64,000 nt of DNA from an uncultured Dehalococcoidia bacterium. Its GTDB lineage: Bacteria > Chloroflexota > Dehalococcoidia > Lucifugimonadales > Lucifugimonadaceae. Where the stretch lies: NCBI GenBank assembly GCA_951812795.1, contig OX638325.1:186001-250000 (forward strand), written 5' to 3'. Of this stretch, positions 40,692-53,474 are shown piece by piece. The notes under the pieces were generated by a model. The model was given only the letters and a program-made list of their open reading frames with translations. It was not told the origin of the DNA and made no database searches. Position 1 is the first letter of the stretch. Every line of letters begins with the position of its first letter. Both the position numbers and the translations under genes were made by a program.

Positions 40692-40770
40692 GGCCTCCCC
40701 CTAACCCCCTCCTGAAGGAGGGGGGACAGGTACTTGCCGTGCTCCTGGAGGAGGGGGGACAGGTGCTTGT
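40692..40770. repeat. Family A palindrome (GGAGGGG type), one full and one partial copy
   Basis: The full copy (40692-40726) reads CCTCCCCCTAACCCCCTCC then a TGAA loop and GGAGGGGGG. A partial copy (CCTGGAGGAGGGGGG plus ACAGGTGCTTG) follows at 40744-40770. Confidence 0.8.
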
Positions 40771-41326: not shown

Positions 41327-41476
41327 GATTCCTCGCTGCGCTCGGAATGACATGGATCAGGCTCGGAATGACAAGGGTCGCGTTGGGCATTACGTGGATC
41401 GCGTTGGGAATGACGTGGATCGCGAATGGGCATGTACGTGGATCGCGATTGGGATGACGCGGATTGGGATTGGGAT
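41327..41476. repeat. CHSERSEES-type repeat with degenerate tandem GGAATGACGTGGATCGCG units
   Basis: Starts with ATTCCTCGCTGCGCTCGGAA, whose complement encodes the well-known artefact peptide CHSERSEES, and runs into about seven imperfect units of about 20 bp (GGAATGACGTGGATCGCGTT and variants). A second copy lies at 42143-42225. Confidence 0.8.
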
Positions 41477-41477
41477 T

Positions 41478-41744
41478 TTAGCGATATGCTCGGTCGCGGC
41501 GGACTACCTTGAGTACTAGCACTCGCAAAACTTCGTCTTGGATTTCACAGATGACTCGATAATCTCCGACTCGGTAACGCCACCAGCCGCGTAGCGGCCC
41601 AGATAGCGCCGTACCCAACTGCCTTGGGTTTTCCGAATCGGCGACTCGCTGGCGCATGTAGTCAATGATTCGTCGTGTGGTAGGCCTATCGAGTTTGCGG
41701 AGTTCGGATCTGGCGGATCTGGTGTACTCAATCGTCCAAGCCAA
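41478..41744 (-). CDS. RelE/ParE-family toxin
   Basis: 88 residues with the RelE fold pattern: TIEYTRSARSELRKLDRPTT, then a helix, LSGPLRGWWRYRVGDYRVICEI (LRGWWRYRVGDYRVICEI), and LRVLVLKVVRRDRAYR. Such toxins cleave mRNA on the ribosome. The start is TTG (AAGG 7 bases before it), inside the 3' end of the antitoxin gene, a 17-base overlap that keeps the two in step. It stops directly beside a repeat array. Confidence 0.88.
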   Translation of the reverse strand: MAWTIEYTRSARSELRKLDRPTTRRIIDYMRQRVADSENPRQLGTALSGPLRGWWRYRVGDYRVICEIQDEVLRVLVLKVVRRDRAYR

Positions 41745-41955
41745 GGTCTCGCCTTATTTCCTCTTCGGAGAAGACTTCTTCCTCGCCTTTGCGGACGCGC
41801 TCCGAGATTTCTGCGGCGAGGTAGTAGTCCTCGATGTCATCGATGCTTCGTTCGATCATCTCGCGGATGTAGAAGGCTTTCGTGCGGCGCGTCTTTGATG
41901 CGAGGTTGTCGAGTCGACGCTCGGTTTCGGGTTGCAGTCGAATGGAGGTAGGCAT
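41728..41955 (-). CDS. RelB/DinJ-like ribbon-helix-helix antitoxin
   Basis: 75 residues from the ATG at 41955. The N terminus MPTSIRLQPETERRLDNLAS is a ribbon-helix-helix DNA-binding domain, followed by KAFYIREMIERSIDDIEDYY and an acidic C terminus likely to wrap the toxin. An in-frame ATG at 41991 would place the start over the promoter and is not preferred; the still longer frame runs through repeat DNA. It is cotranscribed with the RelE-like toxin and probably binds the palindrome just upstream. Confidence 0.85.
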   Translation of the reverse strand: MPTSIRLQPETERRLDNLASKTRRTKAFYIREMIERSIDDIEDYYLAAEISERVRKGEEEVFSEEEIRRDLGLDD

Positions 41956-41975
41956 ATAGGGCTCTGCATTCTGGA

Positions 41976-41998
41976 CGATACGTGTATTCATTGTATCG
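41976..41998 (-). promoter_or_regulatory. Operator/promoter of the RelBE-like pair
   Basis: CGATAC-N11-GTATCG, a perfect 6-bp inverted repeat 21-43 bases upstream of the antitoxin ATG. It overlaps a minus-strand -10-like TACAAT, with TTCAGA 18 bases upstream as a weak -35. This is the layout expected for autorepression by an RHH antitoxin. Confidence 0.6.
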
Positions 41999-42468
41999 GC
42001 CGTGGGCCTGTCGTCTGAACCGCGGATTGCGCGGGTTTTCGCGGATCGGCTAGGATGGGTTGTTGTTTGTTGGGGGTATTGCGTTGATGTCGGGGTTGGG
42101 TGTTTGGGTGTGGCGTGGGTTTTTCGCGTGATGGGTTGTTGGGATTCTTCGCTGCGCTCGGAATGACAAGGGTCGCGTTGGGAATGACATGAATTGGGAT
42201 CGGGATGACGTGGATCGCGTTGGGGGCTGTGCACAACCTCACTTACGACGGATTCACGGTCAGATCACGTGCGCCTCCCGTTGCCCCGCCCCTCTGGATG
42301 GGCGTTCCGCCCGCTGAAGCGCCGGCTTTCGCCGGAATGACGGTGGTTATGCACAGAACCCGTTGGGGTTGACTGGGGGTTGTTGGCCATCCCTTGCGTT
42401 CGCTTCGCTGACCCCCTCTGAATCTCCCCCTGAAGGGGGAGGGTATTAGGAGTGCGCGGGGTGCGGAA
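41999..42468. other. Repeat-rich intergenic region upstream of the toxin-antitoxin pair
   Basis: No gene. It holds a CHSERSEES-type repeat (42143-42225), a CGCCGGCTTTCGCCGG hairpin repeat (about 42314-42343) and a CCTCCCCCTGAAGGGGGAGG-like palindrome (about 42411-42443). Confidence 0.7.
42143..42225. repeat. CHSERSEES-type repeat, copy 2
   Basis: TCTTCGCTGCGCTCGGAATG followed by ACAAGGGTCGCGTTGGGAAT and two further degenerate units. Same family as 41327-41476. Confidence 0.75.
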
Positions 42469-43494
42469 CTAGCGGGATATTTCGTGGACGATGTTGATGA
42501 GGGGTTGGTTGCGGGTTAGGCGGTCTAGGTTTTGGGCTACGGTTTGGGCTCGGCGGGTGGCGGTGCCGTTGGTGGCGCCGGAGTGGTGGGGGACCATGAT
42601 GATGTTGTCTAGTTCCCAGAAGGGTTGGTCGGATGGACGGGGTGCGTCGGTGGGGGATTCGGGGTATTGGTACCAGGTGTCGATTGCGGCTCCGGCGATG
42701 GTGCGGTTTTTCAGGGCGTTGTAGAGGGCGGTTTCTTCGATGATGTGTCCGCGTGCGGGGTTGATTATGTAGGCGGTGGGTTTCATCAGTCCGAGTTCGT
42801 GGGTGCCGATCAATCCGTGAGTTGTTGGGCCTAGAGGAGTGGAGATTAGGACGAAGTCGGAGTTTGCGAGGACGTGTTCGCGGGCGGAATTGCCGCCTCC
42901 GATGTAGTTTGCGCCGTATAGTTCGCCTTCGGCTGTGTCGGCTCTTCCGGCGGCGATGACGGGCATTTCGTAGGCTTGGGCGAGTTTGGCGACGCGGCGT
43001 CCGATGGCGCCGAAGCCGATGATGCCGAAGGTTCGACCCATGAGTTCGCGGTAGGAGCCGTGTCTGCCGGGCCACATCTCCCATGATCCGGCGCGGAATG
43101 TGCGTTCGGATTTGAACAGTTCGTGGTCGAGGGCTACGGCTACTGCCATGACCCACTCGGCGATGGGTGCTTCGTGGTGGTAGGCGTTGGCGACGATGCA
43201 GCCTTCAGGGACGGCTTCGGGGTCGATGCGGTCGTATCCGGCGGCCGGGATGAGGATCGCGCCGAGGGAGTCGGCTGCTGCGCCCATTTCTTTGGTGAAG
43301 TCGGTGCCGATGAATACGTTGGCGCCGCGAAGGGATTCGGATGAGGGTTTGTTGTCGATGAACTTGGTGTAGATCCACTCGACGGGCTCGGTTACGGGGA
43401 AGGGTGGGACTTCGACTTGACCTCCCCCTAACCCCCTCCTGGAGGAGGGGGAAATTCGAGGGCGGTTAACCAGTACGCGGAGTTTGGAGGGCAT
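42469..43494 (-). CDS. D-2-hydroxyacid dehydrogenase, NAD-binding (with in-frame repeat insertion)
   Basis: 341 residues. The substrate domain includes LIPAAGYDRIDPEAVPEGC; the NAD domain has FGIIGFGAIGRRVAKLA, the catalytic Arg in INPARGHIIEETAL, a family-type IDTWYQYPES and the catalytic His in VPHHSGAT. It oxidises or reduces 2-hydroxy/2-oxo acids. Residues about 14-26 (SPSSRRGLGGGQ) are encoded by a family A palindromic repeat (43420-43451) lying in frame between beta strand 1 and the next segment. Ser/Gly-rich and polar, it would form a surface loop. No clear ribosome site is visible before the ATG at 43494. Confidence 0.88.
   Translation of the reverse strand: MPSKLRVLVNRPRISPSSRRGLGGGQVEVPPFPVTEPVEWIYTKFIDNKPSSESLRGANVFIGTDFTKEMGAAADSLGAILIPAAGYDRIDPEAVPEGCIVANAYHHEAPIAEWVMAVAVALDHELFKSERTFRAGSWEMWPGRHGSYRELMGRTFGIIGFGAIGRRVAKLAQAYEMPVIAAGRADTAEGELYGANYIGGGNSAREHVLANSDFVLISTPLGPTTHGLIGTHELGLMKPTAYIINPARGHIIEETALYNALKNRTIAGAAIDTWYQYPESPTDAPRPSDQPFWELDNIIMVPHHSGATNGTATRRAQTVAQNLDRLTRNQPLINIVHEISR
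43420..43451. repeat. Family A palindrome inside the D-2-hydroxyacid dehydrogenase gene
   Basis: CCTCCCCCTAACCCCCTCCT and GGAGGAGGGGG match the intergenic family A units closely and keep the reading frame open (no stop, 13 codons or so). Confidence 0.85.
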
Positions 43495-43716: not shown

Positions 43717-43936
43717 GGCGACCGCAAGCGTAGCCCCTACGGTTGGGTTGTTGTGGACCGTGTGGGTTTTGCCGCGAACGAGGCGAGGGCGACCACAAGG
43801 GTCGCCCCTACAGTTGGGGTCCGAGCGGGAGGGAATCCCTAGAAGTCGGGTTGGCCGGAGGGCCAGTTACAGTTGTCGGGTGGCCAGACGTTTCTTATAC
43901 GGGAATGGTAAGGGCGACCACAAGGGTCGCCCCTAC
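43717..43936. repeat. Family D repeats (GGGCGACC...GGTCGCCC), three copies
   Basis: The core GGGCGACCACAAGGGTCGCC pairs with itself (GGGCGACC / GGTCGCCC) and is followed by CCTACNGTT. Copies 2 and 3 are 125 bp apart as part of a tandem duplication; copy 1 is more diverged (GCGACCGCAAGCGTAGCC). Confidence 0.8.
43839..43893 (-). pseudogene. Duplicated 3' end of the ABM-domain gene
   Basis: On the minus strand the frame reads NVWPPDNCNWPSGQPDF and stop, nearly the same as the last 17 residues of the neighbouring gene (NVWPPDNFNWSSGQPDF and stop), 120 bp away. Each copy is preceded on the plus strand by a family D repeat, so a unit of about 120-125 bp was duplicated in tandem. It is a gene remnant, not a gene. 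Confidence 0.8.
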
Positions 43937-43958
43937 GGCTGAAGTCCGACGGGAAACC

Positions 43959-44678
43959 CTAGAAGTCGGGTTGGCCTGAGGACCAGTTGAAGTTGTCGGG
44001 CGGCCAGACGTTTCGGCCTCGGCGGGCACCCATGTTTCCGGCCATTGAGGCGTCTCGGCGTTCTTCGTCGTACCAGTCGGCTACTGTGTCGCGCCATTGT
44101 TTGATGTGGGGCGTTGCGACGTGGTAGTCGAATGCGGCGGCGTTTACGTAGACTTCGTAGAGGTATAGCTCAGTTGGGTCGTCGATGTTTTGGTAGACGT
44201 CGAAGCGTAGGCATCCGGGCTCTTCGTGGGTGGAGCCGATACCGTCGAGTGTGACTGCGTCGATGAAGTCGTCGACCTTGTCGGCTTGGACGTATTGTGG
44301 AGCGTGGATGACGTGGAGGGTGCCAGATTGGAATGCGGGGTCGTCGACGGCGCCGGGGCGATAGGCGTCCCAGTCGGCGGGTCCGGCGGGGTAGACAGAT
44401 CGGCAGAATGAGACTTCAGGCGGCTCAGCGAACATGTCGGCGGATGCATCGCGCCACTGGTGGAAGTGGTACGCCATCGTGTGGTACTGGAACGCGGCTT
44501 CGTCTTCGTAGACCTCGCAGAAGGCGAACTTTGTGGGGTCTTCGTCGTCTTGGATAATGTCGAAGCGATAGCAGTTGGGCTCGCCGAGAACGGAGCCTAC
44601 GCCGTCGCCGATAGAGGCTTCAATGAAGTCGTCGATGCGGTCATCTTTGACCTTTAGACGTACCATGAGGATGTACAT
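43959..44678 (-). CDS. Tandem antibiotic-biosynthesis-monooxygenase (ABM) domain protein
   Basis: 239 residues from the ATG at 44678, which has AGGAGA 6 bases upstream. Two ferredoxin-fold ABM domains follow each other: residues 1-100 (RLKVKDDRIDDFIEASIGDG, EPNCYRFDIIQDDEDPTKF, YHFHQWRDASADMF) and 115-205 (YVQADKVDDFIDAV, EPGCLRFDVYQNIDDPTEL, HIKQWRDTVADWY). Such proteins are cofactor-free monooxygenases or heme-degrading or quorum-related enzymes; the function here is unknown. The open frame continues upstream through an array of repeats to 45170, which is an artefact. A duplicate of its 3' end lies downstream. Confidence 0.85.
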   Translation of the reverse strand: MYILMVRLKVKDDRIDDFIEASIGDGVGSVLGEPNCYRFDIIQDDEDPTKFAFCEVYEDEAAFQYHTMAYHFHQWRDASADMFAEPPEVSFCRSVYPAGPADWDAYRPGAVDDPAFQSGTLHVIHAPQYVQADKVDDFIDAVTLDGIGSTHEEPGCLRFDVYQNIDDPTELYLYEVYVNAAAFDYHVATPHIKQWRDTVADWYDEERRDASMAGNMGARRGRNVWPPDNFNWSSGQPDF

Positions 44679-44772
44679 TTGGTTCTCCTGATTGTTGGGT
44701 GGGCTTTGATTGCCGTTATGGAGTATATCGCGGGGATTGAAAATCACCCCTCCTTGAGGGGGATTTTGGCGC
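44679..44772. other. Short spacer between the ABM gene and the family A array
   Basis: No gene seen; the family A/B2 array begins at 44773 and continues to 45153. Confidence 0.6.
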
Positions 44773-45153
44773 GGCCTCCCCCTAGCCCCCTCCTGAAGGA
44801 GGGGGATTTTGGTGCGGCCTCCGGCTGGTCGACCGCTGGAGGGGTGGGGGGGGGTGGCGTGGCCTCCCCCTAGCCCCCTCCTGAGGGAGGGGGGAATTGT
44901 GGTTTGGCCTCCGGCTGGTCGGCTGCTGGAGGGGGGGTTGGCGTGGCCTCCCCCTAGCCCCCTCCTGAAGGAGGGGGGATTTGTGGTTTGGCCTCCGGCT
45001 GGTCGGCTGCTGGAGGAGGGGATTTTGGCGTGGCCTCCCCCTAACCCCCTCCTGAAGGAGGGGGAATTGTGGTTTGGCCTCCGGCTGGTCGACTGCTGGA
45101 GGAGGGTATTTTGGTGCGGCCTCCCCCTTGCCCCTTCCTGGAGGAAGGGGGAT
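44773..45153. repeat. Tandem array 1: five family A palindromes alternating with a second repeat, period about 86 bp
   Basis: Family A units begin at 44773, 44861, 44945, 45032 and 45118, spacings 88, 84, 87 and 86 bp. Each is GGCCTCCCCCTAGCCCCCTC then CTGA(A/G)GGAGGGGG. Between them lies a second unit, GTTTGGCCTCCGGCTGGTCG followed by (G/A)(C/T)TGCTGGAGGAGGG, repeated four times. The frames are open through the whole array, which produces long spurious reading frames. It ends 59 bp before the DUF559 gene. Confidence 0.9.
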
Positions 45154-45211
45154 TTTTGGGGGATTGCCATTTTGGTTGGATGGATTTGTTGATGGGGTGT
45201 ATGGTGTACGT

Positions 45212-45574
45212 ATGTACTTCAAGACTCGTAAGCAATATCTTCGTGCTAAGTCGATGCGCCAATCTCCTACGGATGCGGAGAGGTTGGTTTGGGAGCATCT
45301 TCGGGCTAGGCGGTTGGATGGTTATAAATTTCGTCGGCAGATGCCGATTGATGGGTTTATCGTCGATTTTGCGTGTTTCAGGTCGAAGCTTGTCGTTGAG
45401 TTTGATGGTGGTCAGCACATGGAGCGAATGGTGCATGATGAGTTTCGGACGGCGGTGATCACTCGGAATGGTTACGAGGTTTTGCGTTTTTGGAATGGTG
45501 AGGTTTTCGAGAATCTTGAGGGTGTTTTGGAGACGATTCTTGTTCATTTGCAACGGAAGGGAGGGGAGCGGTGA
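45212..45574 (+). CDS. DUF559 (Vsr-like, PD-(D/E)xK fold) endonuclease-like protein
   Basis: 120 residues from the ATG at 45212. Features of DUF559: the N-terminal basic helix region TRKQYLRAKSMRQSPTDAE, LVWEHLRARRLDGYKFRRQMP, the core GFIVDFACFRSKLVVEFDGGQH containing the acidic active-site residues (VDF ... VEFDGGQH), and NGYEVLRFWNGEVFENLEGVLETIL. Such proteins are thought to be nucleases related to very-short-patch repair enzymes, sometimes with methyltransferases, but none is near. It stands alone between two palindromic repeat arrays. A longer frame upstream is translated repeat and is not used. Confidence 0.88.
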   Translation: MYFKTRKQYLRAKSMRQSPTDAERLVWEHLRARRLDGYKFRRQMPIDGFIVDFACFRSKLVVEFDGGQHMERMVHDEFRTAVITRNGYEVLRFWNGEVFENLEGVLETILVHLQRKGGER

Positions 45575-45597
45575 TTTGGGGGCATGGCTTTTGCGGT

Positions 45598-46035
45598 GGC
45601 CTCCCCCTAGCCCCCTCCTGAAGGAGGGGGATTTTTCGTTCCCATGTTCTCCGTCTGAAGGCGAGGGGGATTTTTCGTTGCGCTAACGGTCGTTGCGAGT
45701 TGCGGTGGCCTCCCCCTGGCCCCCTCCTGAAGGAGGGGTGATGGAGGCGCTGGCGGCTGCTGACGGAGGGTGATTTGGGTAGCTGGTGGGCGTCTTGGCG
45801 GTCGTGGCGAGTTGCGGTGGCCTCCCCCTAACCCCCTTCTGAAGGAGGGGGGACTATTCGTTGCCATGGTCTCCGTCTGAAGGAGGGGTATTTTTCGTTG
45901 CGCTGGCGGTCGTTGTTAGTTGCGGTGGCCTCCCCCTGGCCCCCTCCTGAAGGAGGGGGGACTATTCGTTGCCATGGTCTCCGTCTGAAGGAGGGGGGTT
46001 ATTCGTTCCCATGGGCTCTGTCTGAAGGTGGGGGA
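45598..46035. repeat. Tandem array 2: four family A palindromes in units of about 110 bp
   Basis: Family A units begin at 45598, 45707, 45819 and 45927, spacings 109, 112 and 108 bp. The rest of each unit is a conserved block with CCATGGTCTCCGTCTGAAGG, GGGG(T)ATTTTTCGTTGCGC, and TGGCGGTCGTTG(T/C). The last unit decays to a TCTGAAGGTGGGGG end. The array starts 24 bp after the DUF559 stop. No gene is seen between 45575 and 46061. Confidence 0.9.
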
Positions 46036-53289: not shown

Positions 53290-53474
53290 GGACATTTCCC
53301 CGTCTCGTGCGAGTGTGCCCCCTTTGTCCCCCGTATCGGAGTACGGGGCAGGCCCCGGACATTTCCCCCGTCTCGTGCGAGTGTGCCCCCTTTGTCCTTC
53401 GGACATTTCCCCGGCTCTTGCAAGTGTGCCCCCTTTGTCCTTCGGACATTTCCCCCGTGAACGGGGGAAACATG
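53290..53474. repeat. Family C array (GGACATTTCCCC units)
   Basis: GGACATTTCCCC occurs at 53290, 53357, 53401 and 53443 (spacings 67, 44 and 42). Each of the first three is followed by a variable segment such as GTCTCGTGCGAGTGTGCCCC and CCTTTGTCC; the last ends in CCCCCGT-GAA-CGGGGGAAA. It fills the 345-bp gap 53134-53478 together with the family B copy; no gene is there. Confidence 0.85.

Follow-up and report, generated by a model that had tools for sequence, protein, structure and literature searches.

The closest described counterpart of the arrangement reported here is the REPtron, in which a RAYT (TnpA_REP) tyrosine transposase is associated with GTAG-tagged REPs, the inverted doublets of which are known as REPINs (PMC3116915, PMC3733652, PMC8266576). 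The CGTC REPs have been reported without a dedicated transposase (PMC3733652), and many phyla carry dispersed G-rich palindromes for which no mover has been identified. The second group of proteins that is relevant here are the homing endonucleases: EDxHD and GIY-YIG are two of their six known families (PMC6083498), and a DUF559 gene has previously been assigned to the EDxHD family (PMC9403480). In Caulobacter, the DUF559 protein VsrA, which triggers an SOS response if its partner methylase is missing, has been read as a VSP (mismatch) repair enzyme that is able to damage DNA (PMC12907096), and the hotspots of intragenomic recombination in Legionella include DUF559-containing repeats and GIY-YIG genes (PMC12308824). 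In the open-access literature, which was the scope of the search, we found no prior report of a link between DUF559 and palindromes.

The window, i.e., the whole analyzed stretch of 64,000 nucleotides, belongs to a single-contig genome of 2.6 Mb and contains a small DUF559 gene that is located between two tandem arrays of one palindrome, denoted family A, along with solitary copies of the same element:

45212..45574, + strand: DUF559 (PF04480) gene for a Vsr-like / EDxHD homing-type nuclease, 120 aa (Pfam, AlphaFold2 model, fold and profile match, active-site residues)
44757..45153, + strand: upstream array, five family A palindromes with the companion block GGCCTCCGGCTGGTCG..GCTGGAGG
45600..46034, + strand: downstream array, four family A palindromes with the companion block CCATGGTCTCCGTCTGAAGGAGGGG
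40694..40725, + strand: solo (dispersed) family A element
43421..43451, + strand: solo (dispersed) family A element

The elements of the upstream array start at 44775, 44863, 44947, 45034 and 45120 (spacing 84-88 bp), and the last of these palindromes ends about 59 bp before the ATG of the DUF559 gene at 45212; those of the downstream array, which begins about 25 bp past the stop at 45574, start at 45600, 45709, 45821 and 45929 (spacing 108-112 bp). The two arrays share the family A palindrome, CCTCCCCCTAGCCCCCTCCTGAAGGAGGGGG, and differ in their companion blocks, so the layout proposed in an earlier note on this DNA, with five units before and four units after the gene at these distances and one palindrome next to two different companions, is borne out by the mapped elements. 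Throughout the genome, a 21-base degenerate family A pattern has 24 matches, nine of which are inside the two arrays, compared to 0 matches for the reversed control pattern, so the arrays are not a chance occurrence. Both arrays have the same (direct) orientation, unlike the inverted pair that is present at most DUF559 loci, which makes this expanded locus atypical; the gene could have been re-inserted into a tandem array or, alternatively, an inversion could have been followed by duplication.

The protein encoded between the arrays matches PF04480 with E=1.8e-40 (137.6 bits versus a cut-off of 20.6, profile positions 2-108 of 109), in agreement with the original DUF559 assignment; at E<=0.001, the only other Pfam match, a weak one, is MTES_1575, and there is no match to Vsr (PF03852). 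The Vsr of this genome is a separate gene. For the AlphaFold2 model (pLDDT 90.6), the best match by both fold and profile is 3HRL, the DUF559 protein NGO0050 of N. gonorrhoeae, followed by I-Bth0305I (3R3P; profile E=3.7e-4, Foldseek probability 1.00, 20% identity) and, later, by Vsr; 1VSR is among the fold matches of the model, so the Vsr-like nuclease fold anticipated in the earlier note stands. The loss of nuclease residues among homologues, which the same note had raised as a counter-argument, is not what we observed: E23, E63 and D65 are retained in 63 of the 63 homologues, D52 and H69 in 62, and D76 in 61. By the model and these residues, the window protein has an EDxHD/Vsr-like homing-endonuclease fold with an intact active site.

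The genome contains three DUF559 genes, none of which lacks neighbouring palindromes, and the palindrome family differs from gene to gene. The second gene (L001) has four copies of the palindrome GCCCTCACCCTAGCCCTCTCCCGC..GGGAGAGGGG (family B) on one side and a different palindrome on the other side, and the third one (L003) has a double hairpin, CAGGGTTTCCCCCGTTCACGGGGGAAATGTCCGAAGGACAAAGGGGGC (family C), on both sides. Because each of these genes comes with its own palindrome family, the single locus became a general question. Solo family B palindromes (CCCTCACCCTAGCYCTCTCCCGC..GGGAGAGGGG) are also present in the window at about 41239 and 43592, and tandem units CGGACATTTCCCCCGTCTCG..CCCCCTTTGTCCTT, which are similar to the family C element, at 53356-53458. 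The window further contains another palindromic repeat family, in the form of 120-bp tandem units around AGGGCGACCACAAGGGTCGCCCCTAC (43786-44014), and six copies of a 21-22-bp unit, GGAATGACGTGGATCGCGATTG (41344-41475), beside a small, antitoxin-like minus-strand ORF (41728-42234). A RAYT can be dismissed as the palindrome mover in this genome, in which no Y1/RAYT gene (Y1_Tnp match) was found.

The survey of DUF559 genes included 80 loci from named genomes of many phyla and 246 genomes drawn evenly from the class to which the window genome belongs. At each locus, the 300-bp upstream flank of the gene was aligned to the reverse complement of the downstream flank of equal length, with a score of at least 18 taken as positive. 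Matching inverted palindromes were found on both sides of 99 of the 147 small DUF559 genes (67%; 57/77 and 42/70 in the two subsets), compared to only 3 of the 677 other ORFs at the same loci (Fisher p=1.9e-86), and random positions reached this score in 0.1% of the cases. Against sides taken from other loci, the upstream/downstream pair of the gene itself ranked first in 33 of 57 cases and among the top three in 44. The ORF, random-position and mismatched-partner controls thus lead us to reject chance or composition as the source of the pairs. The positive loci come from Chloroflexota, Alpha-, Beta- and Gammaproteobacteria, Deltaproteobacteria, Nitrospirae, Planctomycetota, FCPU426, Rickettsiales, Legionella and a Gastranaerophilales bacterium. 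Four DUF559 hits were found in phage records.

The inverted-pair test is validated by the Y1 (RAYT-like) genes, known partners of REPs, which were used as the positive control and of which 14 of 17 have an inverted pair. In the same test, none of the 28 canonical Vsr genes of the same genomes was positive, and no large multidomain protein with a DUF559 domain scored above 14, with the exception of L210, which looks like a small DUF559 inside an accidental long frame. Hairpins of the purine/pyrimidine type (CCCTCTCCC..GGGAGAGGG) are present on both sides of 107 of the 154 DUF559 genes but are not found in this arrangement at any of the 25 small GIY-YIG genes, 27 Vsr genes, 16 Y1 genes or 1287 random positions. 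Therefore, the association is specific to the enzyme family and to the palindrome class. A general habit of small nuclease genes is rejected because Vsr genes lack inverted pairs and GIY-YIG genes are associated with palindromes of another class, and an effect of the DUF559 domain as such is rejected by the large carriers of this domain, which are devoid of the ends.

The window locus, then, exemplifies a pattern that extends far beyond it. The enrichment of family A beside DUF559 genes, which was envisaged in the earlier note, holds for palindromes in general but not for family A specifically, as each DUF559 lineage has its own palindrome, all of the same general build. A strong inverted pair is absent from one third of the small DUF559 genes. 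The homologues from N. gonorrhoeae (L226) and E. coli (L227) were examined and have no palindromic ends; perhaps, these genes have been domesticated.

Hairpins with GC-rich stems can terminate transcription, and palindromes are frequent in the intergenic DNA of the surveyed genomes, so one could imagine that DUF559 genes travel horizontally as cargo or persist best in palindrome-rich intergenic islands, with the hairpins serving as bidirectional terminators or insulators that the protein does not touch. Such a passive association is improbable, given that other ORFs at the same loci lack such inverted pairs almost without exception (3/677), that Vsr and GIY-YIG genes never have the purine/pyrimidine class on both sides, and that the two ends match in sequence, beyond the hairpin shape.

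The usual end consists of a C-rich arm, a short loop, a G-rich arm, a linker (often YTRGG) and a G-rich tail, e.g., TCCCTCTCCCGCTTGCGGGAGAGGG-CTA-GGGTGAGGGT; at some loci (Sphingopyxis, Bradyrhizobium, Afipia and the genus g58), the linker is a second hairpin. The tail points toward the gene in 86 of the 100 upstream ends. By inspection of the ends, no conserved GTAG tag was seen, and YTAGGG is frequent instead. When the upstream and downstream ends of a gene are compared, compensatory double changes are detected in 34 stem pairs (for instance, ACCTCCCCC..GGGGGAGGT versus AGCTCCCCC..GGGGGAGCT at L148) by a folding procedure that retains only the pairs possible in both ends and in which, consequently, broken pairs are not countable. 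Selection appears to act on the structure of the ends. Moreover, over 100 loci, protein identity correlates with end similarity (Mantel p=0.001): the mean end similarity is 0.78 for proteins that are 60-80% identical and 0.32-0.41 below 60%. Between different DUF559 genes of one genome, end similarity is 0.19-0.53, compared to a mean of 0.70 for the upstream and downstream ends of the same gene. Such pairing of proteins and ends would be expected from an enzyme and its cognate substrate, with a contribution from common host ancestry.

The Vsr site is CTWGG, and many of the tails contain the closely similar CTAGG. Together with the published interpretation of Caulobacter VsrA as a VSP-repair enzyme (PMC12907096), this motif would be compatible with DUF559 being a Vsr-like mismatch repair enzyme and with the palindromes being places that are protected or acted on, without any mobility. 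We consider this explanation very improbable: the true Vsr genes do not have such ends (0/28), and a repair function provides no reason for the inverted cognate ends or for the presence and absence of whole cassettes at orthologous sites.

The elements are also dispersed apart from the genes. In G228, sixteen solo elements conform to a sharp consensus of about 38 bp, and their flanking sequences are unrelated; eight of these elements are tail-facing inverted doublets, seven of which have 48-51 bp between the tails, a layout that is the same as that of the ends around the gene and is close to that of REPINs. A degenerate element pattern is present in 76 of the 246 genomes, the reversed pattern being almost absent, and genomes with a strong DUF559 hit contain 8.2 copies on average, versus 1.9 in those without one (raw means, uncorrected for phylogeny). 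Three element-rich genomes (G134, G242 and G288) have no detected DUF559 gene.

At two sites, those of G228 and G120, the gene is absent from otherwise identical sites in relatives. In G228, a 599-bp insert that consists of an end, the gene, the inverted end and one more element lies between two convergent genes, the stop codons of which overlap or nearly touch in the majority of the 14 congeneric sister genomes; the cassette is absent from all 14. At the site occupied in G120, the sister genomes G157 and G146 contain an inverted doublet that lacks the gene, G134, G211 and G103 one hairpin, G242, G200, G076 and G228 other palindromes, and G167 and G235 nothing similar. We did not recognise a target-site duplication at the G228 and G120 sites, the exact ends of the unit not being fixed. 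At the window site, G005 (L238) has the gene inverted relative to the window genome (G000) and flanked by the usual inverted ends, G006 has one element and another gene, and G002 has neither; at the site of the third gene, L003, the cassette recurs in G004, an inverted pair lacking the gene is present in G003, and G002 has one element. Comparisons of G000, G004 and G005 yielded no clean solo insertions. Among the Azospirillum megaplasmids, there is no empty site, the DUF559 locus being kept in 7 of 7 replicons, and no indels of solo elements were seen in 46 kb. Two loci display rearrangements of their own: in L238, the DUF559 3' end and its palindromic element are partially duplicated in tandem, and in L232 (Azospirillum argentinense MTCC4035 p1), the palindromic element next to the conserved DUF559 gene is interrupted by about 1.1 kb of inserted DNA that carries a transposase-like frame.

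These site states bear on the main rival explanation, namely, that the palindromes are old or were moved by other means, and that a free-standing DUF559 nuclease cuts the doublets and inserts between their halves by gene conversion, so that the palindrome is the target rather than the cargo. Gene-less inverted doublets at gene-bearing sites (G157/G146 versus G120; G003 versus G000) keep homing into palindromes alive, and the fold of I-Bth0305I and the position of the window gene inside a direct array are compatible with it as well. We nevertheless deem it unlikely because the two ends of the cassette comprise a pair that is specific to each protein lineage and because the G228 cassette came with its ends to a site that is free of palindromes in the sister genomes.

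We favor, at a probability of about 60%, the interpretation that the window locus belongs to a widespread REPtron-like unit that is based on an unrelated enzyme and unrelated palindromes and in which cutting by DUF559 and subsequent repair copy the cognate palindrome. The unit consists of a small DUF559 nuclease gene with a hairpin element on each side, most often as a mirror-image pair with the G-rich tails facing the gene, and the same elements are also scattered without the gene, singly, in inverted doublets or in tandem. In the most likely mechanism, the nuclease would recognise its own cognate element (the hairpin plus the tail) and nick or cut at the element, beside it, or at a target, whereupon repair would copy the element or the whole cassette into new intergenic sites and would also drive local tandem expansion, as in the arrays of the window. 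The idea of the earlier note that the DUF559 protein spreads or expands the palindromes thus agrees with the RAYT/REP-like architecture and with the states of the sites, which fit mobility; that mobilisation is carried out by the protein itself is the part that we infer.

Small GIY-YIG genes provide a parallel that is weaker than the DUF559 case and points to the same principle. An inverted pair with a score of at least 18 is present at 13 of the 45 such genes (L288-L310, L404-L423 and the loci of the window genome), and the CGTC-type palindrome GTCATTC..GAATC is found on both sides of 19 of the 45, compared to 4 of the 154 DUF559 genes. In the window genome, each of the three small GIY-YIG genes (L294, L408, L414) is bracketed by inverted CGTC-type palindromes. 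The palindrome families beside the Y1 genes of the same class (L348-L377) are unlike those of either DUF559 or GIY-YIG genes.

The inverted bracketing of DUF559 genes by dispersed repeats suggests that this enzyme spreads a class of palindromes without a known mover. A more general proposition, to which we would give even odds, is that the orphan palindromes of bacteria are moved by free-standing nucleases of the homing type, DUF559 for the purine/pyrimidine G-rich hairpins and small GIY-YIG for the CGTC-type REPs, in a new class of mobile DNA that is REPtron-like, independent in origin of RAYT transposases and present across many phyla. A specific partner enzyme makes the old question of how palindromic repeats spread directly testable and provides a genome-wide context for DUF559, in Pfam still a protein of unknown function. 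It also suggests that homing-type endonucleases have taken more than one route to a selfish existence in bacterial chromosomes.

Among the known systems, Vsr (PF03852) has a related fold, but the window protein has no Pfam Vsr match and Vsr genes have no palindromic ends. NGO0050 (PDB 3HRL) and YcjD are of the same DUF559 family as the window protein, but the N. gonorrhoeae and E. coli homologues lack inverted palindromic ends. The catalytic fold is the same as in I-Bth0305I (PDB 3R3P), except that here there is no intron or interrupted gene, and the DUF559 gene lies between dispersed palindromes. As in IS/MITE pairs, a gene-bearing unit with inverted ends coexists with gene-less derivatives elsewhere; unlike these, the DUF559 unit has no DDE, HUH or serine/tyrosine recombinase and no recognised target-site duplication, and its ends are hairpins that also occur singly. 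The unit is REPtron-like but is not a REPtron, since it has neither a Y1 transposase, of which the window genome is devoid altogether, nor a conserved GTAG: the enzyme is EDxHD/Vsr-like rather than a Y1 HUH transposase, and its palindromes form purine/pyrimidine hairpins that carry a G-rich tail. It has in common with REPtrons that inverted palindromes stand on both sides of a small DNA-processing gene (as seen at 99 of the 147 DUF559 genes, the window arrays themselves being direct), that these palindromes are also dispersed, in many cases in the form of inverted doublets, and that a genome contains several palindrome families with a separate gene for each.
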